This document shows positions 18,380-37,572 of a stretch of DNA of 64,000 nucleotides, piece after piece. Origin of the DNA: Streptomyces lycii (GTDB lineage Bacteria > Actinomycetota > Actinomycetes > Streptomycetales > Streptomycetaceae). The stretch covers positions 1 to 64,000 of the forward strand of contig NZ_WHPN01000268.1 of assembly GCF_009735685.1 (NCBI RefSeq). The letters run 5' to 3'. The notes below the pieces were generated by a model. The model had not been told where the DNA came from, ran no database searches, and was given only the letters and a program-made list of their open reading frames with translations. A program made the translations under genes and the position numbers. Within the stretch, counting starts at the first letter, position 1. Each line of letters opens with the position of its first letter.

Positions 18380-18408
18380 ACAGTAGACCTCACGAAACGT
18401 GAAGTCAA
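18380..18408 (-). promoter_or_regulatory. Composite promoter with palindromic operator in the spacer
   Basis: On the minus strand: TTGACT (-35), exactly 17 bases containing the palindrome TCACGTTTCGTGA, then TACTGT (-10). Operator core 18390-18402. Same layout as at 20,469, 26,366 and 37,544. Confidence 0.7.
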
Positions 18409-18584
18409 TCCCCCTTGCTGATCCGATCCGCGAGCTTCACGCCGTAGCCGAACAGGATCGCGAACACGCCGACGAACACGGCGCCCACGGCGAGCCCGTT
18501 CGCCCCGCTGTCGTGAACCCAGCGAGCCAGCAGGCCGGCGACAGCGGCAGCGATGACGAGTAACGCGTATGAGACTCTGGTCAT
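18405..18584 (-). CDS. 59-residue membrane protein
   Basis: Read directly from the sequence: an ATG at 18584 opens a frame with two hydrophobic helices (YALLVIAAAVAGLLA and GAVFVGVFAILFGYG) separated by RWVHDSGANG. Its stop codon lies inside the -35 of the next promoter. Probably a small inner-membrane phage protein; function unknown. Confidence 0.55.
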   Translation of the reverse strand: MTRVSYALLVIAAAVAGLLARWVHDSGANGLAVGAVFVGVFAILFGYGVKLADRISKGD

Positions 18585-18625
18585 GGCGGCAGACTAGCGG
18601 GAGCGGCTGCGCCAGGCATGAGAAA

Positions 18626-18650
18626 GCCCCCGACGGAGTCCGCCAGGGGC
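18626..18650 (-). terminator. Intrinsic terminator
   Basis: GCCCC…GGGGC stem with inner CGG/CCG pairs, followed by T residues on the minus strand; directly after the 55-residue gene. Confidence 0.65.
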
Positions 18651-18659
18651 CAGGCTCAG

Positions 18660-18827
18660 TTACTCGCTCAGTTCGATCGGAATGTGTACAGTGTCCCGGG
18701 CTACCTCGACCCTGTCCGTGACGATGTCGAAGGTCTGCGCGGTGTCCGCGTCAACGATCAGAATCGGCATTGCATCTGCCTCAAGTGGCAGGGTGTTCAG
18801 CAGTCGGCGAAGCTCTCCGAGTGTCAT
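18660..18827 (-). CDS. Hypothetical 55-residue protein
   Basis: Read directly: ATG at 18827, MTLGELRRLLNTLPLEADAM… to …HIPIELSE. A typical short phage protein with LGELRRLLNTLP helix and a beta-rich end (DTVHIPIEL). Function unknown. Confidence 0.6.
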   Translation of the reverse strand: MTLGELRRLLNTLPLEADAMPILIVDADTAQTFDIVTDRVEVARDTVHIPIELSE

Positions 18828-18848
18828 GCAGCTCATCCTCTCAGCGCG

Positions 18849-19046
18849 TCAGCGCGTGTACGTCTTCAGGAACACCGGCAGCCGTAGCGAGCTGTGGTAG
18901 TCCGCCCACTGGCCTCCCGGCTCGCGCCGACTGTATGTGAACGACACCGCGGCTTCGCCGTTGACGTCTCGCCACACGCGGGTCACCACGACCGCGGGTC
19001 CGGCGGAACGCCTGTGCCAGGTCTGGCCGATCTTGACGTTGCACAT
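18849..19046 (-). CDS. Hypothetical 65-residue protein
   Basis: Beta-rich small basic protein (GPAVVVTRVWRDVNGEAAVSF). GAGGGGG precedes the ATG at 19046, and a 14-base operator palindrome sits immediately before it. Function unknown. Confidence 0.65.
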   Translation of the reverse strand: MCNVKIGQTWHRRSAGPAVVVTRVWRDVNGEAAVSFTYSRREPGGQWADYHSSLRLPVFLKTYTR

Positions 19047-19059
19047 GGGTGCCGCCCCC

Positions 19060-19073
19060 TCACGAATTCGTGA
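19060..19073. promoter_or_regulatory. 14-base operator palindrome TCACGAATTCGTGA
   Basis: Perfect inverted repeat overlapping the last codons of the dCMP deaminase gene and ending 14 bases before the next start codon. One of about ten related sites in the prophage. Confidence 0.6.
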
Positions 19074-19452
19074 ACACAGTCCGATGAATGCCAGCCGCTG
19101 TGATCAGCGTTGAACACGCCGGGCACGGCTCGCGGGTCACATAGAGCGTGGCTCCGGGTAGCTCATGAGCCGGCGCGTGGTAGATCGCATTAGCCTCCGC
19201 GTGGACAGCGATGCAGTTCGCGTAGTCGCTGTTCGGCGCGCACGCTGACGCGTCGAGTCGTCCCCGCGGACAGTTGCCGGCGGAGGCACATCCGGGGATT
19301 CCGGCCGGGGCCCCGTTATAGCCGACGGACAGCACCCGATGAGTCCGCGACAGGATGACCGCGCCGACCTGCGAACGCGTACAGTCAGCGCGAGTGGCTA
19401 CGGCTGCCGCCAGGGCAAGCGCCCACTCGTCCCAGCTCGGGCGGTCACTCAT
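19060..19452 (-). CDS. dCMP deaminase-like zinc enzyme
   Basis: A 130-residue cytidine/deoxycytidylate deaminase. The zinc site is complete: HAEANAI (His84, Glu86) and EPCPACS (Cys110, Cys113). Extra cysteines in ADCTRSQVG and CASAGNC fit dCMP deaminases with a second zinc. It would turn dCMP into dUMP for thymidylate synthesis during phage replication. The start at 19452 overlaps the upstream stop (ATGA). Confidence 0.92.
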   Translation of the reverse strand: MSDRPSWDEWALALAAAVATRADCTRSQVGAVILSRTHRVLSVGYNGAPAGIPGCASAGNCPRGRLDASACAPNSDYANCIAVHAEANAIYHAPAHELPGATLYVTREPCPACSTLITAAGIHRTVFTNS

Positions 19453-19985
19453 GTCCGCTGCCCTCCCGCTGTCTGCTTCCACCCGGACAGAGTCCACCGA
19501 AAGCCGGCCTCCGCGCGCTCGTGGCATACCGGATGGTGGCACTCCGGGTCTACGGCCGGGCCTCTGCACGCGTACCACCACCGAGCCGTGGCAGTTTGCA
19601 CGGACGCCTCTTCAGGGTTGAGCTGGTCATCGCGCACCCTGGCAGCTTTCAGGGTGGCCGCCGTGCCGTCTCCCGCGCAGTTGTGCCGCCCCATTCGCTG
19701 TTCGAGTGTCACCGGAACGACGTCGCCGCACACCGGGCAAGCCGTAACGTACAGCCGCTCGGCACAGTTCCGGTCCCAATGCCGGCTCCATGCCACCTGA
19801 CCCGGCATTGGGTAGGTCTCCGGGCTGTATCTGTCGTACTCGCCGACGGTGTCCGGTATGTCCCGCCAGTGGTGCACCAGGTCCCCGCCGTCGGTACGCA
19901 GCCGGAACACCTTGACCTCATAGGGCGTAGCGTTGAACCAGTAGCGGACGCCGTTGAAGACGCGCTCCCAGGCTTTCATGTGCAT
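19449..19985 (-). CDS. Hypothetical 178-residue protein with CxxC motif
   Basis: Contains RLYVTACPVCGDVVPVTLEQ and later Cys/His pairs (CRGPAVDPECHHPVCHE), so a metal-binding fold is likely. Start at ATG 19985 because GGAGGGG lies 6 bases upstream; the longer frame to 20015 has none. Coupled to dCMP deaminase by a 4-base overlap. Function unknown. Confidence 0.68.
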   Translation of the reverse strand: MHMKAWERVFNGVRYWFNATPYEVKVFRLRTDGGDLVHHWRDIPDTVGEYDRYSPETYPMPGQVAWSRHWDRNCAERLYVTACPVCGDVVPVTLEQRMGRHNCAGDGTAATLKAARVRDDQLNPEEASVQTATARWWYACRGPAVDPECHHPVCHERAEAGFRWTLSGWKQTAGGQRT

Positions 19986-20063
19986 GTGGCTCCCCTCCAT
20001 CAACTGTCCGGACACAGCGAAGCGGACACGGCGACGTCCGCCATGCCCGCTGCTGCGCTGGGC

Positions 20064-20438
20064 TCACTTGGTCAGGATGCGCAGCTTGCGCCCCGCCGGG
20101 TGAATGATCTTGCGGGCGCCATCGCTGTCATAGCAGTGGAGTCGGCCCGCGCTGTCGGCCACGTACCGCGTGCGGCTGAAGCGCTCCACACCTCCGACGT
20201 GGCCGAACGACTCGAACATCACGCCTTCCGGCGCCAGCCCTGCCAACTCGCGTGCGTCCCAGGTGGTGACACGGAACTTCCGGCCCGCCGTAGCCGTGTG
20301 GCGTCCGGTGTACGTGTCCGGACTGATGTGGTCCGGCGCTGCGTGACACTCCAGATCCCGACCGTCAAGCAGCGCAGCGAAGCACTCCTCGCAGTGGACG
20401 TTGAACCGGTTGGTCTGAGTCTCGCAGCAAGGGCACAT
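20064..20438 (-). CDS. Hypothetical 124-residue protein with N-terminal zinc ribbon
   Basis: Begins MCPCCETQTNRFNVHCEECF, a compact four-Cys zinc knuckle, followed by a beta-rich domain. A composite promoter/operator at 20,469-20,497 drives it. Function unknown. Confidence 0.7.
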   Translation of the reverse strand: MCPCCETQTNRFNVHCEECFAALLDGRDLECHAAPDHISPDTYTGRHTATAGRKFRVTTWDARELAGLAPEGVMFESFGHVGGVERFSRTRYVADSAGRLHCYDSDGARKIIHPAGRKLRILTK

Positions 20439-20468
20439 GGTGTTCTCTCTTCCGCTCGGTGTTCCTTC

Positions 20469-20497
20469 AGCGTAGACCTCACGAATCGTGAAGTCAA
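20469..20497 (-). promoter_or_regulatory. Composite promoter with palindromic operator in the spacer
   Basis: Minus strand: TTGACT, a 17-base spacer containing TCACGATTCGTGA, then TACGCT. Operator core 20479-20491. The predicted transcript starts about 25 bases before the ATG at 20438. Confidence 0.7.
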
Positions 20498-20522
20498 CAT
20501 CCGGACACAGCGGAGCGTCCGC

Positions 20523-21350
20523 TTACTTGCTGTCCGCTGTCCGCAGCTTGTCCGCGTACCGCTGTCCGGTCCGAGCGGCCACGTCGAAGTAGTCCGCCAG
20601 TGTCCGGCCGGTGACCTCTGCTCCGCTGTCCGCGATGTCCGCCGCTGCCGCCTTGATGTCCGCCAGCGAGGGGGTGCGCTTGCGCGGTGTCCGGACACTG
20701 TCCGTGGGCTTCACCTGCGCGTTGTCCGCGGACTGTCCGTCGTCCTCGATCATGTGCACCTCTGTCCGGACAGGCGAAGCCATGTCCGCCATGGCCCGGT
20801 TGATCGTGTCCGCCGACGTGACTGTCTGTCCGGCGTATGCAGACAGTGTCCGCCGCTCCCGGACACCCGCGGCCGTACCCGCCGGCAGGTCGTGGATTAG
20901 GTCCATGCGCGTGTCCGCAATCCTTTGGGCTAAGCCCGTGCCCACCGCCTCCGTCCGCAGCAGCCGCGCCACCAGGTCCGAGCCGAAGAAGATCGCGCCA
21001 ACCGGCAGTGCCGTCGCCAGCAGGACCAGCGGCCAGGCGAGGCCCACCGTGCCCTCCGGCTGATGCAGCTCCGGCATGATGCCGTGCAGGTGGTTCAGCC
21101 CCAGGGACGCCAGCGTGTAGGCGCCCAGCACGCGGAATGCCAGCTTCCGGGCACTCCCGTCCAGCACCATGCCGGCGACCAGGGCGACCGCCATGAGGCC
21201 GTCAACCACCAGCGGATAAAGGATCGCAGCCTGCGCGTCCGCGCCGATGGCGGTTGCTACGTCGCGCAGCGCGTTCCACGACACCCGGAAGGCCATAACA
21301 ACGATCAGGCCCAGCGCCAGCAGAAGAGTGATCTTGGCCTTGCGGTTCAT
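20523..21350 (-). CDS. DUF2637-type membrane protein with C-terminal HTH-like region
   Basis: A 275-residue protein. Residues 1-135 carry four hydrophobic helices with the pattern YPLVVDGLMAVALVAGM typical of DUF2637, a family mostly seen on actinobacterial plasmids and integrative conjugative elements (Spd-like). A charged linker leads to TLADYFDVAARTGQRYADKLR, a possible helix-turn-helix. GGGAGG overlaps an operator-like palindrome and lies 5 bases before the ATG. The coding strand is very rich in CGGACA. Role in the phage unknown. Confidence 0.8.
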   Translation of the reverse strand: MNRKAKITLLLALGLIVVMAFRVSWNALRDVATAIGADAQAAILYPLVVDGLMAVALVAGMVLDGSARKLAFRVLGAYTLASLGLNHLHGIMPELHQPEGTVGLAWPLVLLATALPVGAIFFGSDLVARLLRTEAVGTGLAQRIADTRMDLIHDLPAGTAAGVRERRTLSAYAGQTVTSADTINRAMADMASPVRTEVHMIEDDGQSADNAQVKPTDSVRTPRKRTPSLADIKAAAADIADSGAEVTGRTLADYFDVAARTGQRYADKLRTADSK

Positions 21351-21357
21351 GTTGACC

Positions 21358-21370
21358 TCCCGTTTCGTGA
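21358..21370. promoter_or_regulatory. Operator-like palindrome overlapping a ribosome site
   Basis: TCCCGTTTCGTGA, a one-mismatch form of the TCACG-N3-CGTGA site. On the minus strand it includes GGGAGG, the ribosome site of the DUF2637 gene. Confidence 0.5.
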
Positions 21371-21383
21371 ACTCAACGTACCG

Positions 21384-21659
21384 CTACTCGGGCGCAGCCG
21401 CAAGACGCGCGTGCAGACGGGCGATCAGCGTTTCGCCGATCAACCCGTCCTCGCCGTTCGTGTCGATGTCAAACGAGACGATGTCCTCTGCGCTGACGCG
21501 CTCGCCGTGCCCGAACCAGTCGAAAAGATCGTCCTCGTCCACTTCGAGGAACAGGGCCACCGCATACTGCGGGAAGAGGATGGCGCTGCCGGTCTCCGCG
21601 AGCAGGATGATGATTGCGCCCAGGTGCGTACGCAGATTCTCCGCGTCGTCATTCGGCAT
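21384..21659 (-). CDS. Hypothetical 91-residue acidic protein
   Basis: Starts at ATG 21659 (MPNDDAENLRTHLG). Acidic (FLEVDEDDLFDWFGHGE). Overlaps the upstream gene end by 11 bases. No family recognised. Confidence 0.6.
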   Translation of the reverse strand: MPNDDAENLRTHLGAIIILLAETGSAILFPQYAVALFLEVDEDDLFDWFGHGERVSAEDIVSFDIDTNGEDGLIGETLIARLHARLAAAPE

Positions 21660-21894
21660 AGTGGTCTCCCGCCAGTTGGCGCGCTGCGCGCAGTGCCTTG
21701 CTGTTCTCGTAGCGGATCGACGCCTCCGCCTTGCCTGCGCGAAGCGCCGCGTCCGGCGAGCTGAAGTCCTCGACGCACAGCCAGACATCGGCCAAGCGAC
21801 GGGAGCCGATCAGTCGGCGCTTGCGGAGCTGGACGACCATAACGGTTCCGCCGAGGCGGAAAGAGACGCGGTAGAAGTGGCCGTGCTCAAGCAT
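21649..21894 (-). CDS. Hypothetical 81-residue basic protein
   Basis: Short protein with a beta-strand start (HFYRVSFRLGGTVMVVQL) and a helical tail (DAALRAGKAEASIRYENSKALRAAR). Overlaps the methyltransferase end by 8 bases, so co-translated. Function unknown. Confidence 0.62.
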   Translation of the reverse strand: MLEHGHFYRVSFRLGGTVMVVQLRKRRLIGSRRLADVWLCVEDFSSPDAALRAGKAEASIRYENSKALRAARQLAGDHYAE

Positions 21895-22940
21895 CGAGCA
21901 GCCTCCTGTACGCCTCGTATGCCTGCTGTGGGACGACGCCGTTGCCGATGGCGTGAAGCTGGTCCGCTCGGCTGAGCCCCGGCGTAGCCGTCACCCACCC
22001 GTCCGGGAGTCCCATCAGCCACTCAGCGAACCGGGCCGTAAGGCGACGACCACCACGCGGACCGGTCTCTGTCGGTATGGGCGCAGCCCTGCCCATCCAT
22101 GCCTCTTGCCGCCGAATGGCAGGCTCGTACTTGCCCCAATCCTGAACCAGATCAGCATCCGGATCCGGCAGGGTGGTGACTGCCGTGCGCAGGTTCATCC
22201 CGCCTTTGCGATGCGGACTTGTGCCCGGCCCTCCCGTGCCGTCCGATGTGGTCGGGGTGGGCAAGAGGTAGACCACCTCGTCATCCAAGGTGGGCCCGTG
22301 CCCTCCGGCCTTTCGCTTGTCCGGGTGCTGAGCCGCGCCGTTGCGGCCGAGCTGTGCCGTGGGAGTCTTGAACAACAGCACCACTTCGCTCAGTGGGCGA
22401 CTGTTCTTGCCGTGCTGGTTCGACGCCCCCGATTTCCAGTCACGCGCCGTGGGCGTGGGAAGGAGTTGCAAGTCCGAACCACCGGTTCCGGTGGTGCGCA
22501 CCCCCCACGTCGGACGCTCGAAGAGTTGTCCAGCGCAGGTCATACCCGATTTCGGCCAGGTCTGCGGCGACAACGTCGAGCCCGCGGGTTCGGAGGACTG
22601 CGACGTTTTCCAGGAAGAGGTAGCGCGGTCGAAGTACCCGAGTAGCTTTGGCGACGTGCTTCCAGACTCCCGAGCGCTTCCCATGGATGCCAACCCTTCG
22701 TCCCGCGTTGCTGATGTCCTGACAGGGGAACCCCGCTGTGATGACGTCCGCCTGGCCGTCCAGTTCAGACCAGTCGTAATCCGTGATGTCCCCGATGTTC
22801 TCTGCACCGGGGAACCTCTCCTCAAGGATCTTGCACGCGTGCTTGGTGACCTCCGCAACGTGCGTCACCTTGTCGCCTACGAGCGGTTCCACGGCCAGGC
22901 CAATGCCCCCGTAGCCGGCGCACAGTTCAAGAATTGCCAT
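21887..22940 (-). pseudogene. DNA cytosine-5 methyltransferase with a frameshift
   Basis: The N-terminal frame (22,940 to 22,440) has the C5-methyltransferase motifs: LELCAGYGGIGLAVEPL (motif I), GFPCQDISNAG (motif IV with catalytic Cys), LFLENV (VI), ASDVGGAHHRNRWFGLA (VIII). It then stops at 22,440. The target-recognition region and motif X (QLHAIGNGVVPQQAYEAYR) continue in the +1 frame down to 21,887. The break lies between about 22,500 and 22,440; both halves are otherwise intact, so the mutation is recent, a sequencing error, or bypassed by frameshifting. An active enzyme would protect phage DNA from host nucleases. Confidence 0.82.
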
Positions 22941-23133
22941 CGCCGCAACCCCCACACTCGTAGCTGTCGACTTCGCTCACCAGCTCGCCCAGCAGGCCGC
23001 GCGCGTCGTCCTCGGGCATCTCAACGGTGCACACCGTGCGTCCCGCCGCGCCCCGCGTGTGCAGCAGGAAGACGTGCCCGGCGCGTTCAAGATCCACCGT
23101 GCCGCCGTCGTATGTGGAACTGCGAAGCTCCAT
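22927..23133 (-). CDS. Hypothetical 68-residue protein
   Basis: Beta-rich start (LRSSTYDGGTVDLERAGHVFLL) and a Cys/Gly tail (YECGGCGDGNS). Overlaps the methyltransferase start and abuts the upstream gene. Function unknown. Confidence 0.6.
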   Translation of the reverse strand: MELRSSTYDGGTVDLERAGHVFLLHTRGAAGRTVCTVEMPEDDARGLLGELVSEVDSYECGGCGDGNS

Positions 23134-23463
23134 TCAGACCAGCCCCGCAATGGCGTCGCCCCAGGTCTCGCCGTCGTCCTGTCGAATCTGCGCACGGTTG
23201 AGGCAACCCGCGGTCACGTCGCTGACGCTCAGCAGGTCACGAGCCACGTGGAGCGCCTTGTCTCCCTCGCGCTCCCGCAGCACGTCCAGCGGCACGCCGA
23301 GCCGGTGCAGTACGTGACCCACCAGGCAGCTCGGAGCGCCGTTGTTGACGTACTGGCAGCTGCCGTCCTCGTCCTGCTCGTCGTACACGTACTCCGGCCG
23401 TTCCAGCGCAACGGTGCGCAGCACGCTCCGCACCTGCTCGTCGCTGACGTTGATCTTGTCCAT
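23134..23463 (-). CDS. Hypothetical 109-residue protein
   Basis: Contains DEDGSCQYVNNGAPSCLVGH, a pattern seen in several actinophage small proteins, and acidic helices. GAGGGAG precedes the ATG; an operator-like palindrome lies 13 bases upstream of the start. Function unknown. Confidence 0.65.
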   Translation of the reverse strand: MDKINVSDEQVRSVLRTVALERPEYVYDEQDEDGSCQYVNNGAPSCLVGHVLHRLGVPLDVLREREGDKALHVARDLLSVSDVTAGCLNRAQIRQDDGETWGDAIAGLV

Positions 23464-23475
23464 GGCAGCTCCCTC

Positions 23476-23491
23476 TTCTCGATTTCGTGAA
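23476..23491. promoter_or_regulatory. Operator-like palindrome TTCTCGATTTCGTGAA
   Basis: One-mismatch form of the TTCACG-N4-CGTGAA site, placed 13 bases upstream of the ATG at 23463. Confidence 0.5.
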
Positions 23492-23557
23492 CGTGCGTGC
23501 TCCCGGTGGCCTACGACGGCCGTATCCCTGGTACAGATCCGGGAGCTGAGCTGACGC

Positions 23558-24010
23558 TCAGATGCGCTCTACGGCGCTGACCCACCAGGCCGCCCCGTCG
23601 ATGTCGTCGCGCACCAGGTACGGCATGTCGGGGTCCGCTGCGTCGATCTCCACCAGCACACCGGTCCGGCCTGGTACGAGCGCCGACGTCTCCGGAACCC
23701 GGACCCGGTCGCCAACAGCCAGGGGCGCAGCCCGCTCCGCATCCAGCGCAACCAGCACCATGTGCGCCAGCGTTTCCGCGTGACCCCGGGCGTACAGGGT
23801 GTTTGCAACGAGCACGTCAGCCACGGTCTTGACCCGCGGGTCAGCGGCGCGCAGTTCGTCAGCGTCCACCGCGAACACGCCTCCGCCTTGCGTCCAACGC
23901 ACCATGTACCGATCAGCACCGCTCGCCTCGCTGTACTCCGGCCCGTGCAGAATCTCAACTGCGCCATGCGCACCGACTTCGGCGATGTCGCCTCGCTTGA
24001 AAGTGGTCAC
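23558..24010 (-). CDS. Hypothetical 150-residue protein
   Basis: Two SH3-like beta segments appear: KRGDIAEVGAHGAVEIL at the start and GDRVRVPETSALVPGRTGVLV later. Such barrels occur in nucleic-acid or protein-binding proteins. Coupled (ATGA overlap) to the upstream 55-residue gene. Function unknown. Confidence 0.66.
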   Translation of the reverse strand: MTTFKRGDIAEVGAHGAVEILHGPEYSEASGADRYMVRWTQGGGVFAVDADELRAADPRVKTVADVLVANTLYARGHAETLAHMVLVALDAERAAPLAVGDRVRVPETSALVPGRTGVLVEIDAADPDMPYLVRDDIDGAAWWVSAVERI

Positions 24011-24174: not shown

Positions 24175-24183
24175 GGCGCCACC

Positions 24184-24198
24184 TCCCGAAATCGAGGA
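24184..24198. promoter_or_regulatory. Diverged operator-like palindrome
   Basis: TCCCGAAATCGAGGA keeps the AAATCG centre of the prophage operator with mismatched arms; it overlaps the ribosome site of the 55-residue gene. Confidence 0.35.
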
Positions 24199-24229
24199 CT
24201 GCTCTGTTGGCTGATAGGGGGATCGGCGG

Positions 24230-25070
24230 TTAGGCGCGCAGCGCGCCGTCCGCGATGTCCAGCACGGTGGCGAGGACCCTCGCCGGGTAGTACTCGCGGC
24301 CTCGGACAGGGGTTTCGCCGGCGTCGCGCAGAGCGTTGATGATGCGTCGCTCAAGGTCGGGCGCGGCCGTGCCGGGCATGTCGGTGTGCAGGCGGATCAC
24401 GTCCGTCAGGCCGTCAGCGGCGTGGGTGCGCAGGCGCGGTCGCGGATCGCCGGACGTTATGCCGAACTTGACGGTGTTGGTGTCGGGATCGCGGACTACG
24501 TAGAAGGCATCCCAGGTCTGACCCGCGCAGTAGCGGCAGATGCCCTTGCCCCTCTGGACGCTGTTCGGTCGTGTCGTCGTCTCATGACCCTCCGCACAGC
24601 GGACCCGGTGAGGGGTGGGGCTGCCCAACCACATCTGCTCAAGGACTGTTCCGCCCAACTCCGTCACGCGCCGGATGAACTCTCGGTGTGCGGTCTCGGA
24701 GCCGGTGGCGCAGATGCGGCAGATGCCCCGGCCCTTTTGGACGCTGGTCGGGCGGGGCGTCGTCTCGTGGCCATTAGCGCAACGGACCCGATGGGGGGGT
24801 GCGGTTGCCCAGCCACTCCGATTCCAGGACCGTCCCGCCCAGTTCCCCCACGCGACCCAGGAACGCCCACCAGGCGTAATAGGGGTCATTCCCGGCGCAC
24901 GCGCGGCAGATGCCTTGGCCCTGCTGGACCCTGTTCGGACGCGGACGTGCCAGATGCCCAACGCGACAGCGCACCAGCATCGGCGTCCTGTGGCCCTTCC
25001 ACCCACTCGTAATGACCGTCCCGCCCTGCGCCTCAACAGCGGCGCGGAACGCGGCCTCTGCCGCCTTCAC
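24230..25070 (-). pseudogene. Zinc-repeat protein with C-terminal GIY-YIG-like nuclease domain, frameshifted at a C7 run
   Basis: Three copies of a ~50-residue treble-clef-like repeat are visible, each with GGTV…, RVRC..GHE…RP.SVQ.G.GIC..CAG (four Cys/His ligands). After them comes FYVVRDPDTNTVKFGITSGD…GREYYP, which resembles the GIY-YIG nuclease fold. The first frame (from ATG 25070) stops at 24774 inside repeat two. Removing one C from the C7 run around 24,792-24,798 rejoins it to the frame ending at 24,230 and restores the repeat. Such proteins are often selfish or homing-type nucleases. Its start overlaps the sigma-like gene by 4 bases. Confidence 0.78.
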
Positions 25071-26224
25071 AGCGCACCGCGCACGCGCACGAAGCGGAGA
25101 CCGATGAACCGCGCGAACTCGTTGATGTGCTCCCGCCGCCAGTCCTCCGACGTGCTGCGCAGGTAGAGCGCCGTGCGCGTGTCGGTGTCCGCGAGCCAGG
25201 CGACCCGGCGGGAGGACGGCACTTCCAGCCCGAGGGCGACGAAGTCGAACCAGTCCTGCTGCTGCTCCGCGGTCAGCTCGTGCAGCTCTTGCGCCATGGC
25301 CAGGCCGTGAACGCCCTCGCTGCTGTCAGTCGGCTCCGCGGCTTCAGCGGAGGAGGGGGTGGCCTGCTGAGCTTCCCTTTCGGCAACGGCAGTTGCCACG
25401 CGCTCGTGTACGCCGGCGGTAGCGTCGAGTGCGTCTGCGACGTCGCCGTATGTCGCTTCCCAGCGCTTGGCGAACATCTCCCGCCCCTGCCGGCGCCAGC
25501 CCTTAACCTGTGACTTGGTGCGCGCGGCGAGGTCTTCGGCAATCGAAGCGTCATCCGTGTAGACGCCACAGCCGATGCCGAAGTCAGCGCGCAGGACGGC
25601 CGCCTGCGACGGATTCAGGGTGTTCAGCACGGAGTGCACCCGCTGCGTCGTCTGCTTCCGCCGGTAGGCCGCCCGGTCCTCCGACGTCACGTAGTCAGCC
25701 GGAACGCCTGCGCTGTCAGCGATGACGTCCAGCAGCGTGCCGCCATCCTCCGTAGTGGGTGCGTCCAGCCGGGCGTAGCCTCCGGTTGCCAGGCGCGCGG
25801 CGTACGCGTTCTCGGGAGAGAGCGAACCGACAGCCTGCATCGCCTCCGAGTCCTGTGCGAGAAGCTCGGCCGCAGCCGCATCGCCCTCGCACTGCCGGAG
25901 TGCGTGCGCGAAACGCTTGGCAGTCGCCACGCTGACCCCGGGATACCGATCGGCCGCCACGCTGTTGGACACGGCGCCGGCAATGGTCTTCTTCAGCCAG
26001 CGGACCAACGTGCCCACGGTCGCGCCGCGGAACTTCGGCAGGTCAGCGAGCACCTGAACGATCGCGTCCTGCGCCAGGTCCTCGGCCAACTGCGTGTGCC
26101 CGTGCGCGTAGCTGCGACCTGCTGCTTCCGCGAACGGCTGCACGTGCTCGATGATCTTGGCGACTGCGTACGCCTTACCGGCCACCGCATCGTTGACCGT
26201 GCCTATGCTGATGTCCCACGACAT
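25067..26224 (-). CDS. Sigma-70-like phage transcription factor
   Basis: A 385-residue protein. Residues ~40-95 resemble sigma region 2 (AEDLAQDAIVQVLADLPKFR, LVRWLKKTIAGAVSNS), and ~200-260 resemble region 4 with an HTH (LNTLNPSQAAVLRADFGIG, SIAEDLAARTKSQVKGWRR). A longer C-terminal part is unique. It may steer host RNA polymerase to phage promoters, possibly the two duplicated control elements at 36.9 and 61.0 kb; that link is inference. ATG at 26224 with GCGGGAG upstream inside a leader hairpin. Confidence 0.7.
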   Translation of the reverse strand: MSWDISIGTVNDAVAGKAYAVAKIIEHVQPFAEAAGRSYAHGHTQLAEDLAQDAIVQVLADLPKFRGATVGTLVRWLKKTIAGAVSNSVAADRYPGVSVATAKRFAHALRQCEGDAAAAELLAQDSEAMQAVGSLSPENAYAARLATGGYARLDAPTTEDGGTLLDVIADSAGVPADYVTSEDRAAYRRKQTTQRVHSVLNTLNPSQAAVLRADFGIGCGVYTDDASIAEDLAARTKSQVKGWRRQGREMFAKRWEATYGDVADALDATAGVHERVATAVAEREAQQATPSSAEAAEPTDSSEGVHGLAMAQELHELTAEQQQDWFDFVALGLEVPSSRRVAWLADTDTRTALYLRSTSEDWRREHINEFARFIGLRFVRVRGAL

Positions 26225-26365
26225 GTCTGCTCCCGCTGCTCGATGTGCTCGAAAGGGGGCGCAGCGGTTACAGGCATGGCGAAGCCGGAGGCACACCAGC
26301 CAGCGGGAGGGTCCCGTGAAACCGTGGGGGGACGCTGCTGGCCGGTGCGCATCCGGCGTAGTTCA

Positions 26366-26394
26366 AGGGTGGACCTCACGAAACGTGAAGTCAA
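26366..26394 (-). promoter_or_regulatory. Composite promoter with palindromic operator, ahead of the sigma-like gene
   Basis: Minus strand: TTGACT, a 17-base spacer containing TCACGTTTCGTGA (26376-26388), then CACCCT, a weaker -10 than at the sister sites. A leader of about 135 bases follows, with a TAACCGCTGCG element at 26,260-26,270. Confidence 0.62.
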
Positions 26395-28456: not shown

Positions 28457-28493
28457 GCTGTCCCCTCCCGAGACACGGAAGCGGGCACCGCCG

Positions 28494-28509
28494 TTCACGA
28501 AATCGTGAA
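28494..28509. promoter_or_regulatory. Operator palindrome TTCACGAAATCGTGAA
   Basis: Perfect 16-base inverted repeat 38 bases upstream of the polymerase start codon. Confidence 0.65.
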
Positions 28510-28539
28510 GAGCAATGCCCGCTGATGTGTGGTTGCTGA

Positions 28540-30951: not shown

Positions 30952-30960
30952 GGGGCCCCC

Positions 30961-31687: not shown

Positions 31688-31699
31688 CCCGACCCCTCC

Positions 31700-32224: not shown

Positions 32225-32511
32225 CAGCGGCGCAGCCTCGCAATCGCAGCGCGAGCGCGCAGCATGATCTGCCGGTTGATCTCGGCGGATTCGCCAACGC
32301 TGTCGCGGTAGGCGTACTCGGCGTCATCCGCCAGGACTTCGAGAACACCGGCGATGATCGTTTCCGTCTCGGCGTTGACCGGCGTCAGCGGGCCGAAGTC
32401 GTCGTCAAGCTCGGCGTAGCATTCGGCGATCGGGCCGCCCGGCGTGCACGCATAGCTGCCGTCAGCGCGCTCGGTCCAAACGTCGCCCTCGTAATCGCGA
32501 AACTGCTTCAT
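32224..32511 (-). CDS. phiSA1p31-like domain protein (copy 1)
   Basis: A 95-residue protein with the pattern FRDYEGDVWTERADGSYAC … DDFGPLTPV. The same layout recurs in the proteins at 33,067 and 35,498. The C-terminal half is a helix (EINRQIMLRARAAIARLRR). Function unknown. Confidence 0.7.
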   Translation of the reverse strand: MKQFRDYEGDVWTERADGSYACTPGGPIAECYAELDDDFGPLTPVNAETETIIAGVLEVLADDAEYAYRDSVGESAEINRQIMLRARAAIARLRR

Positions 32512-32515
32512 GCGG

Positions 32516-32611
32516 CTACCTCCCCTGCCTTACGGCGTACGCCACGCCCAGATGGAACCCGAGTGATACACAGCTGGTACCGATCGCCACTAGCGCAGCT
32601 ACCGCAGCCAT
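32516..32611 (-). CDS. 31-residue membrane microprotein
   Basis: Read directly: ATG at 32611, MAAVAALVAIGTSCVSLGFH then LGVAYAVRQGR. One hydrophobic helix. GAAGGGGG lies about 10 bases upstream. It overlaps the end of the next gene. Function unknown. Confidence 0.42.
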   Translation of the reverse strand: MAAVAALVAIGTSCVSLGFHLGVAYAVRQGR

Positions 32612-32790
32612 ACGACATCCGCCCCCTTCGAAACGGCCGACGCGATCGCATCGACCAGCCGGCTCCAATCCCGACGGCGCTCGGCACCGGGGGAGAGGAA
32701 GATGGTTGAACCCGCGCTAGCGCGCCGAATGTCGCCAGCCGCAGGCGACGCCTTTTCGCTGATGCGCAGCTCAGCCGGCGTTGAAGTCAT
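32599..32790 (-). CDS. Hypothetical 63-residue protein
   Basis: Charged small protein (RISEKASPAAGDIRRA, ERRRDWSRLVDAIASAVSKG). Overlaps both neighbours, consistent with a dense operon. Function unknown. Confidence 0.55.
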   Translation of the reverse strand: MTSTPAELRISEKASPAAGDIRRASAGSTIFLSPGAERRRDWSRLVDAIASAVSKGADVVWLR

Positions 32791-32998
32791 GGCAGATCAC
32801 ACCCCGTTCGCCGCTCTCGCGAATGCGCTTGATCTGCACGTTGCTGCCGTCCGGCTCGATGCCGTGCAGCCACGGACCTGAATCGAGGCGTTCCCGCAGC
32901 AGCGCAAGCGCATCCAAATGACTCGCTGCGCGAACGACAACCGCGTTCGTCTCATCCCACCCGACCGTGTCCGTGCGCTCAACCAGGTATAGTTTCAT
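32771..32998 (-). CDS. Hypothetical 75-residue protein
   Basis: Starts MKLYLVERTDTVGWDETNAV, with a later helix SHLDALALLRERL; a pattern common among short actinophage proteins. GGAGGAATC precedes the ATG. Function unknown. Confidence 0.62.
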   Translation of the reverse strand: MKLYLVERTDTVGWDETNAVVVRAASHLDALALLRERLDSGPWLHGIEPDGSNVQIKRIRESGERGVICHDFNAG

Positions 32999-33023
32999 CG
33001 GCGATTCCTCCTAACACCACAAA

Positions 33024-33051
33024 GCCGGACACCCCGTGAAGGGCATCCGGC
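33024..33051 (-). terminator. Intrinsic terminator
   Basis: GCCGGA/TCCGGC outer stem with CCCC/GGGG inner pairs and TTT on the minus strand, after the 178-residue gene. Confidence 0.62.
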
Positions 33052-33066
33052 AGAGTGGTCGGGCGG

Positions 33067-33603
33067 CTACGCCCGAGTTAGTGGTCCGTACTTGTCAACT
33101 GCGTCGGCAAGCCGCGTGTAGCTGCTCCCGGAACAACTGACCTCGGGCATTCCGTCCGGGTGCGTGTCGCCCGTAAATCGCCAAACGTCGCCCTCGTTGT
33201 CGCGGTAATCCGCAGTCAGGTCGTAGGTGACGCCGTCGAGTGTGTACGAGTTCAGCGCAGTCGGCGCAGCCACCAGCCGCATGCTGCCGGCGTCCCACAC
33301 TTCGTCCCTGCCGCCTTCCACGCTGACCGCGTACCAGGGCTTACACGCTCCGCGGAACGGACCACCCTTGACGGTTCCGCGCCCGCCGACGTAGTCGTGC
33401 TCGACGCTGTCGCCATGTGCGAAGACCCGCGCGACCGGGTCGAGGAAACTCGACATCGCCACCTGCTCGCGCCCGTCAAGCTTCTTCAACACGTAGAACT
33501 CATCCGGTCGACCCGCGTTGAACGGCCCAGCGTGAACCGCGCTTACGCTGCCAGTCACCCTGTCCTTGACCTTCTCGTTTCTGGCGTAACCCGCCATGCC
33601 CAC
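33067..33603 (-). CDS. Hypothetical protein with C-terminal phiSA1p31-like domain (copy 2)
   Basis: A 178-residue protein. The first ~110 residues are unrecognised; the C-terminal part has YRDNEGDVWRFTGDTHPDG … DKYGPLTRA, the same motif as the proteins at 32,224 and 35,498. Function unknown. Confidence 0.7.
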   Translation of the reverse strand: MGMAGYARNEKVKDRVTGSVSAVHAGPFNAGRPDEFYVLKKLDGREQVAMSSFLDPVARVFAHGDSVEHDYVGGRGTVKGGPFRGACKPWYAVSVEGGRDEVWDAGSMRLVAAPTALNSYTLDGVTYDLTADYRDNEGDVWRFTGDTHPDGMPEVSCSGSSYTRLADAVDKYGPLTRA

Positions 33604-33606
33604 TCC

Positions 33607-33780
33607 CTAAAGTGCGTCGTCGTCCCAGCCGAATCGCCTCTTACGCTGATGGATCACGGCGCGCGCCGCAGCAGGCGGGAACGTCCACATCGGAGAACGA
33701 ATAGCGTCGTCATCCAACTGCGGAGCAATTCCCGCCCAATGCGCTAGCGCCGCGTCCCAGCTACTCGCCGGAAACCGCAT
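33607..33780 (-). CDS. Hypothetical 57-residue protein
   Basis: Read directly: ATG at 33780, MRFPASSWDAALAHWAGIAP … HQRKRRFGWDDDAL. Overlaps the end of the directionality-factor gene by 20 bases. Function unknown. Confidence 0.5.
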   Translation of the reverse strand: MRFPASSWDAALAHWAGIAPQLDDDAIRSPMWTFPPAAARAVIHQRKRRFGWDDDAL

Positions 33781-34465
33781 CGTTGTACGACTTCAGCGAG
33801 TGAATCTCGCCGTGGTAATACTCCACGGTGTGCGTGTCGGTTTCGTAGTTCACGTGGTTCAGCTTCAGCGTGCCAACAGCCGGACCGCCGATCCGCTCAA
33901 GCTCCGCGACGACTGTGCGGAGGTTCAGCAGAAAATCCCACGCGTTCGACTTGACGTAGCCACGCCCAAGGTCTTCGTCTTCCGCCAGCCGGAACCAGAC
34001 CTTGATTTCCGGCTTGGGACCGCGGCCCTTGCGCGCGAGCTGCTTGCGCTGCTTCAGCTCCCGCGGGCAGCCGCACGGCTTGCCGATGTCTTCCTTGTCG
34101 GGGCCCAGCATGGTGACGCCGTCGCAGATGTGGATCGGCTGCTTGTTCGGCCCCCACTGGATAAGCGGCACGTCGATCGCGTCCGGCCCGTCCAGCAGAA
34201 TGGGCACCTCGACCGTGTCCGTGAACACCTGAAGGAAGTCGTCCCCGCTGGTCTCCCACTCGGTCACCGAGCCACCCATGCTCTGCGCCACGGCAGCCGC
34301 GATGTCCCGGTCATGCGTGGTCACGCGCCACTTGCTGAGCTTCTGCGGAAGGTTGTTCTCCTGATAGCCGGCCCGGAAGATGAACGCGCTATCCGGCTTC
34401 TCGAACTTCGGCTTGCGCTCGGTGTGCTCCGGGTCCGTCTCGAAGATCCCCATGGGAAGCGGCAT
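33761..34465 (-). CDS. Gp3-like recombination directionality factor
   Basis: A 234-residue protein matching the family that includes phiC31 Gp3. Recognised segments are MGIFETDPEH at the start, WRVTTHDRDIAAAVAQSMGG, PIHICDGVTMLGP, GKPCGCPRELKQRKQLARKG, GRGPKPEIKVWFRLAEDEDLG and SNAWDFLLNLRTVVAEL. In phiC31-type phages this protein binds the serine integrase and turns it from integration (attP x attB) to excision (attL x attR). It lies 27 kb from the integrase, with the early genes, as expected for induction-only expression. Its leader carries the TAACCGCCGCG/CCCCCTT element. Confidence 0.82.
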   Translation of the reverse strand: MPLPMGIFETDPEHTERKPKFEKPDSAFIFRAGYQENNLPQKLSKWRVTTHDRDIAAAVAQSMGGSVTEWETSGDDFLQVFTDTVEVPILLDGPDAIDVPLIQWGPNKQPIHICDGVTMLGPDKEDIGKPCGCPRELKQRKQLARKGRGPKPEIKVWFRLAEDEDLGRGYVKSNAWDFLLNLRTVVAELERIGGPAVGTLKLNHVNYETDTHTVEYYHGEIHSLKSYNDAVSGE

Positions 34466-34500
34466 CTGTAATCCCCTCTCGCTGTGCCCGTTGGGCTGTC

Positions 34501-34526
34501 AGGTAGAAGGGGGCGCGGCGGTTACA
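34501..34526 (-). promoter_or_regulatory. Leader element (copy ahead of directionality factor)
   Basis: On the minus strand TGTAACCGCCGCG followed by CCCCCTTCTACCT. All but one base match the copy at 36,881-36,906, ahead of the RecB-like gene. The CCCCCTT block could pair with the AGAGGGG next to the start codon. Confidence 0.5.
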
Positions 34527-34534
34527 TGAGAAAA

Positions 34535-34558
34535 GCCCCCGGCGGCTTCGCCAGGGGC
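34535..34558 (-). terminator. Intrinsic terminator
   Basis: GCCCCCGGC…GCCAGGGGC hairpin with TTTT on the minus strand, after the 29-residue gene. Confidence 0.72.
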
Positions 34559-34566
34559 CAGTCTCG

Positions 34567-34656
34567 TTACACAGGCTCTACGCCCACCAGTGTGCGGCGG
34601 TCGGCGTGGACCCAGATGTCTCCAGTACCGACAGCCAGATCAGCGCCGCCAGTCAT
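34567..34656 (-). CDS. 29-residue hypothetical peptide
   Basis: Read directly: ATG at 34656 (MTGGADLAVGTGDIWVHADR). ATGA overlap with the 52-residue gene upstream suggests real translation. Function unknown. Confidence 0.42.
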   Translation of the reverse strand: MTGGADLAVGTGDIWVHADRRTLVGVEPV

Positions 34657-34811
34657 TCGAACCCCGCCTTCCGCCTGTCAGGCGTAGCCGGCGCAGCAGC
34701 CAGCGACCACAGCCGCGAGGCCGTTGCTTCGGCGCGCGCCAGCGTTTCCGCGTCAGCGCCCTTGATCTGGATCTCCACGCGCTTCGCGTCGGTGGCCAGG
34801 ATGATGATCAT
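34653..34811 (-). CDS. 52-residue hypothetical protein
   Basis: Read directly: ATG at 34811 (MIIILATDAKRVEIQIKGAD), then a helix AETLARAEATASRLWSL. ATGA overlaps on both sides. Function unknown. Confidence 0.52.
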   Translation of the reverse strand: MIIILATDAKRVEIQIKGADAETLARAEATASRLWSLAAAPATPDRRKAGFE

Positions 34812-34981
34812 CGGCGCTGTCCCCACTTCGGACCGCGCAGCGCGACGGGCACAGCAGGCGGGAAGATGTGCGGCCGGCTGGCACGCAGCATCTCGCGACG
34901 AATGCCAGCCGCAGGATCGGGCGTTGCCGACAGGGACGCAGCCCAGTCAGCGAACAGGAGTCGTGCGGTTGCCGGGTCCAT
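34808..34981 (-). CDS. 57-residue hypothetical protein
   Basis: MDPATARLLFADWAASLSAT … GPKWGQRR, starting at ATG 34981, which overlaps the upstream stop. Part of a chain of overlapping small genes. Function unknown. Confidence 0.5.
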   Translation of the reverse strand: MDPATARLLFADWAASLSATPDPAAGIRREMLRASRPHIFPPAVPVALRGPKWGQRR

Positions 34982-35187
34982 CAGTTCTCTCCTCTCGACG
35001 CAGCAGCGGGGGCGACCAGCAGGCCGGCGATCCACGCCACGATCAGCGCTTCGCCGAATCCGATGGCCGGGACAGCGGGGCGCATGCCGTGCCAGACGCC
35101 GACGAGAATCATCACTGCCCACGCGGTCACGCAGGCGATCCCGATGACCAGCGCGTACGCGGCCAGTGCGTATCCGGCGAGCTTCAC
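34981..35187 (-). CDS. 68-residue membrane protein
   Basis: Two hydrophobic helices (YALAAYALVIGIACVTAWAV and FGEALIVAWIAGLLVAPA). Small inner-membrane phage protein; 4-base overlap with the upstream gene. Function unknown. Confidence 0.65.
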   Translation of the reverse strand: MKLAGYALAAYALVIGIACVTAWAVMILVGVWHGMRPAVPAIGFGEALIVAWIAGLLVAPAAASRGEN

Positions 35188-35498
35188 CGTGTGATCCTCT
35201 CAACCCAGCGGGTAACCGTGACCTCGCGCTGTACCATCTCGGTGGCCTCGATGATCTCGCCGTGGTAGTCGAACGGCTCGACTTCCTGTTCCTCCGTCAG
35301 CCCCTGTACGTACGTCACGCGCCACGCCTTGCCGTCGTCGGGAGCGCGAAAGATCAGCTCATGTTCCGACACCCAGCGCCGCTTGCTGATCTGCTCGCGG
35401 TGAAGCTCCGTGGCGTAGCCGTCCTCCTCCTCGCTGTCGCACTCGAAGGGAACGCCGATGGCTTCCAGCTCGTCACGCGTGAACTTGCGCGTGGCCAT
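35184..35498 (-). CDS. Hypothetical 104-residue protein
   Basis: Acidic protein with beta-rich centre (SEHELIFRAPDDGKAWRVTY) and EREVTVTRWVERITR-like end. Overlaps both neighbours. No family recognised. Confidence 0.65.
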   Translation of the reverse strand: MATRKFTRDELEAIGVPFECDSEEEDGYATELHREQISKRRWVSEHELIFRAPDDGKAWRVTYVQGLTEEQEVEPFDYHGEIIEATEMVQREVTVTRWVERITR

Positions 35499-36025
35499 CA
35501 GCTCTCCTTCCGCTTCAGCTCGCTCGCGAGGCCGTCCACGCAGTTGCGCACCAGGTCCAGCGCGCGGCGCACGTCCCAGGCTTCGCCGTCAGCAGCGTCT
35601 TCGAGGCGCACGCCCAGGCGGAGCAGGGCGTCAGCAAGGGGGGGCGCAGCCTCGACCAGCGGCGTCAGCGGGCTGTAGCTGCCTCGCACCCACTCCTCGG
35701 ACCTGACCAGCCCGATTTCCGTGTCAGGGTCGTTGCTCGCGATCAGCTTCAGCATCCCGTCCGCCTGGCGCTCCCATGTGTCGCCGTCGCAGTCGAGGTA
35801 GTGGGCTGCCTCCTTCGGCGTGGCAGGATCACCGAGGACAACCAGCGGGCGCGGGTCTACTTGATCCGCAGCGAGGTTCAGCGCGAGCGCGAGTTCCCGC
35901 GCAGCAGCGGGGGAGAGGATCGCGTCGCTGCTGAGCCGGGGGACATCCGGGTCCTCCCAATCCAGCGTTACGTCACGGCCGGCGCCAGAGACGGTGAACA
36001 CCTTGCCGAACTCAGACCTGATCAT
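35498..36025 (-). CDS. Hypothetical protein with phiSA1p31-like domain (copy 3)
   Basis: A 175-residue protein. Residues ~80-125 show YLDCDGDTWERQADGMLKL … YSPLTPLVE, the same layout as the proteins at 32,224 and 33,067. The N-terminal part has DVTLDWEDPDVPRLSSDAI. Coupled to the nuclease gene by overlap. Function unknown. Confidence 0.68.
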   Translation of the reverse strand: MIRSEFGKVFTVSGAGRDVTLDWEDPDVPRLSSDAILSPAAARELALALNLAADQVDPRPLVVLGDPATPKEAAHYLDCDGDTWERQADGMLKLIASNDPDTEIGLVRSEEWVRGSYSPLTPLVEAAPPLADALLRLGVRLEDAADGEAWDVRRALDLVRNCVDGLASELKRKES

Positions 36026-36855
36026 TTTCCACGCCTCTCAGTTCCCGTGACCAGCCGCGAGCTGCTGCCCGCGATGGGCTTGCCGATGACCGTCTTGCTG
36101 ATCTCGCGGTCCCAGCGGAAGATCTCTCGCAGGTGCAGGAACGTCGCGAACACGTCCTCGCGATTCGTGCGCACCGGCTTCAGCGACCACTGATCGGGCG
36201 TGATGTGCAGCACCATGCCGCCGTCGATCTCAGGCACCGGGACGCTCGTGCCGTCAGCGAGGATGAGTCGATCGGCGTGCTCGTACGCGCTGTTCTGAAG
36301 CCCCACTTCGGGATACGTGGACTTGCCCGTCTTGTTGTCCAGCACGACCGTGAACGGGTCGCCAGCCTGGTCAGGCTTACCCGCCGGGTCCAGCTTCACG
36401 CGAACAATGGTGTCCGGCGAGCCGGCGTACTCGTGCGTGTCAGACCAGGCGATGTCCTCGGCGTACAGCAGCTCGGGCTGCACGGTCTGGAGAAACGCGT
36501 CGTAGTGGTCCCGGTACGGGATCAGATGCTCAGCGACGTGGCCAACGGCTTCGCCGCGGATCTGCCGTTCGAAGCAGTCATGCGCCTCGCTGCCGATCTT
36601 GCTGCGCTCCGATGTGTACCGGCGAGCGGCACCCTTGATGAGATCGATTGCGCCGTCTCGGTCGCGAGCCACCAGCGCGGGAAGGAAGTCGAGCGAATCA
36701 ACCGCCATCTCAGCGGCGAGCTTCGCGTTCCACGGCGCGAGGAAGGGCTTCGCCAGCGTGCCGATAATGCTGGTTACCCCGGGTACGGTGACTCGCGTCT
36801 CCGTATCGACGTAGAACCGGCTGCCGCCCTTGTGCTCCGTTTTGATCTTGGCCAT
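36022..36855 (-). CDS. RecB/Cas4-like PD-(D/E)xK exonuclease
   Basis: A 277-residue protein. VTVPGVTSIIGTLAKPFLAPW at the start, a central SKIGSEAHDCFER, and the nuclease site YAGSPDTIVRVK plus VVLDNKTGKSTYPEVGLQNSAY (Asp and Lys ligands, then the RecB-type Q…Y motif) define the family. ATG at 36855. It is the first gene after the control element at 36.9-37.0 kb and has a leader with the CCCCCTT/AGGGGG pair. Likely role: DNA end processing for recombination. Confidence 0.82.
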   Translation of the reverse strand: MAKIKTEHKGGSRFYVDTETRVTVPGVTSIIGTLAKPFLAPWNAKLAAEMAVDSLDFLPALVARDRDGAIDLIKGAARRYTSERSKIGSEAHDCFERQIRGEAVGHVAEHLIPYRDHYDAFLQTVQPELLYAEDIAWSDTHEYAGSPDTIVRVKLDPAGKPDQAGDPFTVVLDNKTGKSTYPEVGLQNSAYEHADRLILADGTSVPVPEIDGGMVLHITPDQWSLKPVRTNREDVFATFLHLREIFRWDREISKTVIGKPIAGSSSRLVTGTERRGK

Positions 36856-36880
36856 GAGGGGCCCCCTGTCTTTGTCGGAC

Positions 36881-36906
36881 AGGTAGAAGGGGGAGCGGCG
36901 GTTACA
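36881..36906 (-). promoter_or_regulatory. Leader element (copy ahead of RecB-like gene)
   Basis: Minus strand TGTAACCGCCGCT then CCCCCTTCTACCT, followed by a stem with GACAGGGGG next to the ATG at 36855. Sister copy at 34,501. Confidence 0.5.
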
Positions 36907-36923
36907 GCGCGAGCGGAGCCGAA

Positions 36924-37034
36924 TGACGTTTTGACGAAATGACGGAGGTCCCGGTAATCCCATAGGGTTTCCATAGGGGTTTAGATTTTTATGTAAAAAC
37001 GTCAAAACGTCATAAGTGCTGGTCAGCGGCCCCC
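36924..37034 (-). promoter_or_regulatory. Control element E1: two inverted 14-bp sites 75 bp apart
   Basis: TGACGTTTTGACGA at 36924-36937 faces its near-exact inverse ACGTCAAAACGTCA at 36999-37012; a shared flank ATAAGTGCTGGTCAGCG follows. The same arrangement, with the same 75-base offset, occurs at 61,029-61,134. AT-rich sequence between the sites (TTTACATAAAAAT on the minus strand) could hold a promoter for the leftward genes. No gene is present from 36,856 to 37,093. Confidence 0.7.
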
Positions 37035-37057
37035 GCCTCGCTGAAGGCATGACGAAA

Positions 37058-37083
37058 CCCCCTCACCGCTGTGGGCAAGGGGG
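37058..37083 (-). terminator. Intrinsic terminator
   Basis: CCCCCT/AGGGGG stem followed by TTTCGTC on the minus strand, after the 65-residue gene and before control element E1. Confidence 0.62.
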
Positions 37084-37093
37084 CTCGGGTTGG

Positions 37094-37291
37094 TCAGGCG
37101 CTGCACGCCTCGCAGGTGCGCCGGGGCTGCTCGTCATCGCGGTGTTCCTGGCACATCTCATCCACGCTGATCAGGTCGGCGTAGTACCCGCCGTCCGCAG
37201 CTCGGTACTCCTCTGCCTTGCTGGCGGCTTCGTCCGCGGAGTCCGACACGAACACACAGCCTTCGTCGCTGAACACGCCGTACTCAGTCAC
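37094..37291 (-). CDS. Hypothetical 65-residue protein
   Basis: FVSDSADEAASKAEEYRAADG and a C-terminal CxxC-like tail (RRTCEACSA). Overlaps the next gene by 4 bases. Function unknown. Confidence 0.6.
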   Translation of the reverse strand: MTEYGVFSDEGCVFVSDSADEAASKAEEYRAADGGYYADLISVDEMCQEHRDDEQPRRTCEACSA

Positions 37292-37512
37292 TGCTGCTCA
37301 TCCTCCACGATGCGGGCGATGTACTCCAGTGCCTCGCGCTTGGTCGGCTTGGACGCGTCCGCCACCTCTTCGCCCGGAGCGATGATCACCCAATTGGGGC
37401 CGGACCCGTACCCAGACCCCTTGGGCGCCGGCTTGTTCTCCACGCGGTACGTGCCATCCGGCGTGTCGACCTCGTAGTAACCGGTCCCGGTGCGCTTTGC
37501 CTTGAGCTTCAT
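37288..37512 (-). CDS. Hypothetical 74-residue protein
   Basis: MKLKAKRTGTGYYEVDTPDG … KREALEYIARIVEDEQQ, starting at ATG 37512. A composite promoter/operator ends 32 bases upstream. Function unknown. Confidence 0.6.
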   Translation of the reverse strand: MKLKAKRTGTGYYEVDTPDGTYRVENKPAPKGSGYGSGPNWVIIAPGEEVADASKPTKREALEYIARIVEDEQQ

Positions 37513-37543
37513 CGCCCTGCCCTCTCGCTGCTGACTTGCCCCC

Positions 37544-37572
37544 AGACTAGACCTCCCGAAACGGGAAGTCAA
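37544..37572 (-). promoter_or_regulatory. Composite promoter with palindromic operator in the spacer
   Basis: Minus strand: TTGACT, a 17-base spacer with TCCCGTTTCGGGA (37554-37566), then TAGTCT. Both arms carry the same compensating change (A to C, T to G), keeping the palindrome perfect. Confidence 0.7.

Follow-up and report, generated by a model that had tools for sequence, protein, structure and literature searches.

Candidate repressor operators with two half-site spacings in a phiC31-like prophage of Streptomyces lycii

The first 64,000 nucleotides of contig NZ_WHPN01000268.1 from Streptomyces lycii (assembly GCF_009735685.1; hereafter the window) contain a phiC31-like prophage, and palindromes dispersed through its early region, together with the repressor that probably binds them, are the subject here. 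The prophage polymerase is 47-58.5% identical to Streptomyces phage polymerases among the best 50 rows, and the order exonuclease, primase, polymerase is that of phiC31, as it is in 19 of 19 relatives. A gene of the phiC31 c repressor family sits between the late genes and this exonuclease-primase-polymerase early block, and a c gene was matched by tblastn in 13 of the 19 relatives. A putative gp12-like sigma factor is encoded at about 25067-26224, an assignment that is weak, with Sigma70_r2 below cut-off; a relative of it lies behind the polymerase in 9 of the 19 relatives, phiC31 not among them.

On the minus strand, as the first-pass annotation had noted, TTGACT at 18380, 20469, 26366 and 37544 is followed after 17 bases by a hexamer in the -10 position (TACTGT, TACGCT, CACCCT and TAGTCT, respectively). 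TTGACT-17-TAnnnT fits three of these four sites, the exception being 26366, where CACCCT had also been read correctly. The spacer holds a palindrome at all four, as had been claimed, while the 13-bp form first given for it is too short: the dyad, referred to here as class A, is GACTTCACG-N3-CGTGAGGTC, 21 bp in length, with 8 of 9 arm positions complementary (Table 1). Because it is this long, the GAC of the -35 box belongs to the dyad, and its mirror image GTC lies directly against the -10, a position at which a promoter has no need of it. The paired arm change at 37550 (TTCCCG...CGGGAG) is genuine. The 26372 dyad lies upstream of the putative sigma factor gene, and a fifth copy, with 2 mismatches, was found at 21354-21374.

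Table 1. Candidate operators and the c gene of the S. lycii prophage (positions in the window)
Feature	Position	Strand	Sequence and context
Class A operator (candidate)	37550-37570	-	GACTTCCCG-TTT-CGGGAGGTC inside TTGACT-17-TAGTCT; between c and exonuclease operon
Class A operator (candidate)	26372-26392	-	GACTTCACG-TTT-CGTGAGGTC after TTGACT; CACCCT as -10
Class A operator (candidate)	20475-20495	-	GACTTCACG-ATT-CGTGAGGTC inside TTGACT-17-TACGCT; upstream of gene 20064-20438
Class A operator (candidate)	18386-18406	-	GACTTCACG-TTT-CGTGAGGTC inside TTGACT-17-TACTGT; upstream of small gene (about 18138-18347)
Diverged class A copy	21354-21374	-	GAGTTCACG-AAA-CGGGAGGTC; overlaps ribosome-binding site of gene 20523-21350; no -10
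Class B operator (candidate)	38516-38531	-	TTCACGAAATCGTGAA; upstream of c
Class B operator (candidate)	28494-28509	-	TTCACGATTTCGTGAA; tip of terminator-like hairpin between primase and polymerase
Class B copy	19059-19074	-	TTCACGAATTCGTGAG; directly upstream of ATG at 19046
Class B copy	23476-23491	-	TTCACGAAATCGAGAA; directly upstream of gene 23134-23463
Class B copy, possible	52534-52549	-	TTCACGATTTCGTGAG; late region, apparently within coding frame
c repressor, phiC31 c family	37576-38463	-	PF25746; proposed binding protein

Enrichment of class A depends on the length of the pattern. When up to 2 mismatches are allowed, the bare 13-bp pattern is no more frequent in the window than expected (45 matches against 53.9), and the 17-bp form TCACGNNNCGTGARGTC (up to 1 mismatch) occurs at three further places of the S. 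lycii genome, once exactly. Allowing up to 3 mismatches, the 21-bp pattern is matched 8 times strand-wise, at 5 places of the window, where 0.12 matches are expected; 0 of 100 shuffles reach this count. When TTGACT is included (23-bp form, up to 2 mismatches), there are 5 matches in the 7.65-Mb genome, all inside the window. Across the other 391 Streptomyces genomes this form has 10 isolated matches, each with 2 mismatches, in 9 genomes (at most 2 in each), and the 23-bp pattern read backward, as a control, gives 2 matches in as many genomes. Four cases in the prophage (16301-62800, both strands) fit TTGACN-(16 to 19)-TAnnnT, three of them class A sites; such promoter-like pairs are matches to a sequence rule rather than mapped transcription starts. 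The class A pattern with W at its centre has no match in IMG/VR or GTDB contigs. A looser form matched 8 IMG/VR stretches, which were set aside since their flanks are alike in all eight and resemble a coding motif, so that they are probably not promoters.

A palindrome search without a preset motif returned four copies of the TTCACGANNTCGTGAA type, referred to as class B, which share the TTCACG half-site and have a centre one base longer (N4); in this search, a GC-rich, coding-like cluster ranked above both classes of the window. With up to 1 mismatch, 5 of the 7 class B places in the 7.65-Mb genome fall in the window, and with up to 2 mismatches the window holds 6 (the sixth at 57176) against 0.12 expected. 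The copy at 52534 may be a chance match. The two spacings are partly sorted by place, with TTGACT at 4 of the 5 N3 copies (three with TAnnnT at 17 bp) and none of the 5 N4 copies within a TTGAC promoter. In total, there are 9 dispersed palindromic sites in the early region and one doubtful late site, mostly intergenic. The palindrome family inside several promoters described in the first-pass annotation is part of a wider set, in which N4 copies occupy the c promoter, a terminator-like hairpin and positions at translation starts. At the c promoter, the left arm TTCACG of the 38516 copy could itself serve as a -35 element, 17 bp from a TAGGTT -10.

Three copies, at 21354-21374, 23476-23491 and 19059-19074, lie on or next to the ribosome-binding sites of apparent genes; they may act as a roadblock or at translation start. 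The 28494 copy sits in a region (28470-28530) for which a long hairpin containing G-U pairs is predicted (-36.2 kcal/mol), and operators at the tips of terminator-like hairpins are also found in relatives L009, L025, L028, L067, L070 and L071. Flanks complementary at 7 or more of 10 positions occur at 28 of the 154 sites of window and relatives, compared with less than 1% of random positions (0 of 9 in the window), a strict count that partly takes in longer operators as well. A looser hairpin criterion selects 112 of the 154 sites and 246 of 1600 random positions, with a bias, as the operator pairs with itself.

The protein encoded immediately upstream of the 37550 site matches PF25746, 'Streptomyces phage repressor protein c', at 132.6 bits against a cut-off of 27 (E = 2.6e-38). 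The phiC31 repressor is encoded downstream of the virion genes and made in three isoforms (PMC4557955). In the window, c is 295 aa and its open frame 300 codons, too short to hold much longer isoforms, and three N-terminally different isoforms were not found; as the c proteins of Dubu and G315 are also short (312 aa each), three isoforms are not required of the family. The AlphaFold2 model of c is almost entirely helical (mean predicted local distance difference test score 79.7, predicted template modelling score 0.55). Compared with the viral models of BFVD, it has three matches at E ≤ 1e-3, from Shawty, Nesbitt and Vash, at low template modelling scores (0.42-0.44 of the query); all three are Streptomyces phages with phiC31-like polymerases, and the Nesbitt protein is named an immunity repressor. 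No significant relative of c was found in the PDB by sequence or by fold (best E 0.017 and 0.38), and most VIA-align rows show helical bundles or repeats without clear meaning. Of 392 genomes, 6 gave a match to c by sequence and 8 by PF25746, its own genome counted in both, and peptide patterns of the window protein found no match in GTDB or IMG/VR contigs. As for attachment sites, no direct repeat longer than 11 bp was found between the prophage ends compared.

Of the 19 relatives, all phiC31-like phages or prophages, 15 have a recognisable palindrome that recurs, with 5 to 18 matches each at the thresholds used, and its sequence differs from phage to phage (CCTACTCACGTGAGTAGG in phiC31, CCTACTCTTAAGAGTAGG in Heather, CACCTAGTAACGTTACTAGGTG in Shady). 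A site within 350 bp upstream of c is present in 11 of 14 relatives (2.4 at random placement), a site in the primase-polymerase gap in 13 of 15 (3.7 at random), and a site in the polymerase-gp12 gap in 13 of 15 (4.0 at random), contrasts that are somewhat generous, as random placement ignores the preference of operators for intergenic DNA. In the window, the first two places hold class B, the one at the c promoter being 38516-38531, and the third holds class A (26372). For these counts, the c start of G337 is uncertain, and where there was no gp12 match, the interval was taken as 700 bp behind the polymerase.

We read the sites as operators of the prophage's own phiC31-type c repressor, with c reading both classes, and give this a probability of roughly 0.7. 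The main argument is that both classes stand where relatives use a single operator. The first-pass annotation had no confirmed binder and suggested GntR proteins; c is now a strong candidate. Of the annotation's broader claim, that one protein could silence many early promoters, the reading of the palindrome family as repressor sites is supported, while early timing of these promoters and their silence in the lysogen are drawn from synteny. Repression from an operator placed between -35 and -10 is, in general, a well-known arrangement. Here, a c dimer or higher oligomer would occupy the dyad in the lysogen, and where the dyad fills the 17-bp spacer (37550, 20475, 18386 and probably 26372), bound c would bar RNA polymerase from both sigma contacts. 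The N4 copy upstream of c would serve autoregulation, and the other N4 copies would act within operons, either by blocking or by reinforcing termination. Since the N4 class also sits in a hairpin and at translation starts, promoter occlusion would be only part of the system. It is tentatively hypothesized, at somewhat less than even odds, that one repressor reads one half-site at two spacings, using N3 where the operator has to fit a promoter spacer of 17 bp and N4 for its own promoter, the hairpin and translation starts. The sequences themselves establish the sites with both spacings, the family to which the repressor belongs and synteny at three places; we infer c binding to both classes, occlusion, early timing and the fit of N3 to the 17-bp spacer.

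Several observations weigh against c as the reader of both classes. The window c is 20-28% identical to 12 other members of its family, and across 15 c proteins, the window's included, similarity of c and similarity of operator are not significantly correlated (Mantel rho 0.25, p 0.11; half-site strings compiled by hand from search output), although in the 9 listed phage pairs whose c proteins share at least 55% identity the operators are nearly the same. Synteny supports class A at one place, polymerase-gp12 (26372). The c-exonuclease gap, the place of 37550, has a site in 3 of 14 relatives (Dubu, G315 and G337), where 3.0 are expected, and in Dubu and G315 both polymerase-gp12 and the 350 bp upstream of c are without a site. 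None of the relatives examined combines two spacings of the same half-site. Samy, G044, G224 and Attoomi (L010, L040-L043, L068) have phiC31-like early genes but yielded no recognisable operator; their sites may be more degenerate or differently built, and they were left out of the operator-place counts. A site in the c-exonuclease gap or just behind c is also found, along with Dubu and G315, in IMG/VR contigs L073-L077 (Dubu-like and others); 7 of 9 new loci were examined for such a site (L078 and L079 left out), and L072 has no clear operator.

The alternative that survives best, though we consider it unlikely, divides the work between two proteins: c would read the N4 sites of class B, and the N3 promoters of class A would be read by another, unrecognised protein of the phage. 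A 1-bp difference in spacing would turn a rigid dimer out of place by about 34 degrees, the arms reach 9 bp in class A while the flanks of class B show no such extension, class B consists of even palindromes like those of most relatives, and just one class A site is at a place conserved in relatives. However, the TTCACG half-site is common to both classes, and in the relatives the polymerase-gp12 operator is the same as the c-promoter operator. Parity is not fixed in the family either, as the operator of Dubu, a close phage by c score, is odd-centred. Among 21 prophage frames scanned, moreover, three of the genes that come first behind class A sites match no DNA-binding family, and the fourth is the sub-threshold sigma factor match.

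Far less probable is that the dyad is a promoter feature for an activator or for the phage's putative sigma factor instead of a repressor operator. In its favour are the link of the copies to TTGACT and TAnnnT, the copy in front of the sigma-like gene, and the palindromes that MerR-type activated promoters also have in their spacers, but the N4 copies and 21354 lie outside spacer-type promoters, TTGACT at 17 bp makes a near-standard promoter that should need no activator, and the relatives' palindromes are found in terminator-like hairpins as well.

Equally remote is the first-pass suggestion of a GntR binder (17306-17566 or 16332-16658): both are GntR-type helix-turn-helix proteins at the left end of the prophage, but relatives carry operators at the corresponding places beside c, about 820 bp and another open frame separate the 17306-17566 gene from the class A or B copy closest to it (18386), and neither class has a site at the gntR gene's own promoter. 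GntR regulators usually autoregulate via a site at their own promoter, and the 17306 gene (plus strand) has an imperfect 14-bp inverted repeat of its own, CTAGCCAGGCTAGC / GCCAGGTTGGCTAG (17260-17330), upstream of and overlapping its start. This repeat is unrelated to the class A and B palindromes and is perhaps the operator of that gene.

Having c as the likely reader of both classes, the window can be set beside known systems. Dispersed palindromes are called conserved inverted repeats (CIRs) in phiC31, which the prophage resembles in its repressor family, in the position of c downstream of the virion genes, and in having many such sites; those of phiC31 include one each at the c promoter and in the primase-polymerase gap, and two at polymerase-gp12. 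The phiC31 sites are CCTACTCAC/GTGAGTAGG, without a gap (11 copies in the stretch searched), whereas the window half-sites are TTCACG with N3 or N4, and c has 683 aa in phiC31 against 295 aa. A single operator class, as a defining mark of the phiC31 family, would be a generalisation from the relatives; the window has two half-site spacings and therefore departs from it, which we take as variation. In phiC31, Shawty and G260, the left-arm TACTCA could serve at some sites as a -35, 17 bp from TAnnnT, and judged by sequence, the window promoters are a variation on a family theme. A second repeated element in phiC31 (L009/L066), about GGGTTGCCGACTCCCTTA, has 10 matches at 13 or more of 16 letters and is weakly palindromic; it is perhaps a phage promoter element, and none was found in the early region of the window.

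Spacer-embedded palindromes are not confined to the window. In phiSASD1 (L026), TTGAC overlaps or touches the dyad at 3 of 5 sites, and in the G057 prophage one of 6 sites is embedded in a spacer (TTGACC-17-TAGATT). Both differ from the window in their operator sequences and in having one spacing each, and phiSASD1 also in its 18-bp spacer. No c is annotated in phiSASD1 and none was matched, yet its three spacer-embedded palindromes are kept; it has perhaps lost its repressor. Many dispersed sites are likewise a trait of the repressor-stoperator systems of L5 and the Streptomyces phage R4, described as acting on initiation and perhaps on elongation (PMC6550527, PMC10276819), and 18-30 dispersed repressor binding sites are reported for phiC31 and L5 (PMC4557955). 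L5 sites are described as asymmetric and bound by a monomer (PMC4557955), in contrast to the palindromic sites of the window, where asymmetric, transcription-oriented sites were not found. The paper on Samy names a putative immunity repressor, and its main text does not use the words operator or promoter (PMC11302927).

Two neighbouring features of the prophage may be added. The leader 26225-26366, between the 26372 promoter and the putative sigma factor gene, has a very stable predicted fold (-73.7 kcal/mol), which could be an attenuator. A C5 cytosine methylase gene (21887-22955) looks truncated or split, its frame 22440-22955 matching positions 1-161 of a 324-position Pfam model and no more, and the neighbouring frame 21887-22858 having no Pfam match.

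By naming a candidate binder, the analysis turns a motif observation into a testable repressor circuit for a family whose integrase is in wide use. From the sites themselves, two half-site spacings are an unusual feature compared with the known phiC31 repressor system; if one repressor does read both, the spacings would tie the affinity of an operator to the geometry of its promoter and fix the order in which derepression proceeds. Over the catalogue of operators from 15 relatives, site sequence and spacing change while several places stay, so that the evolution of immunity specificity and of half-site spacing becomes directly testable.

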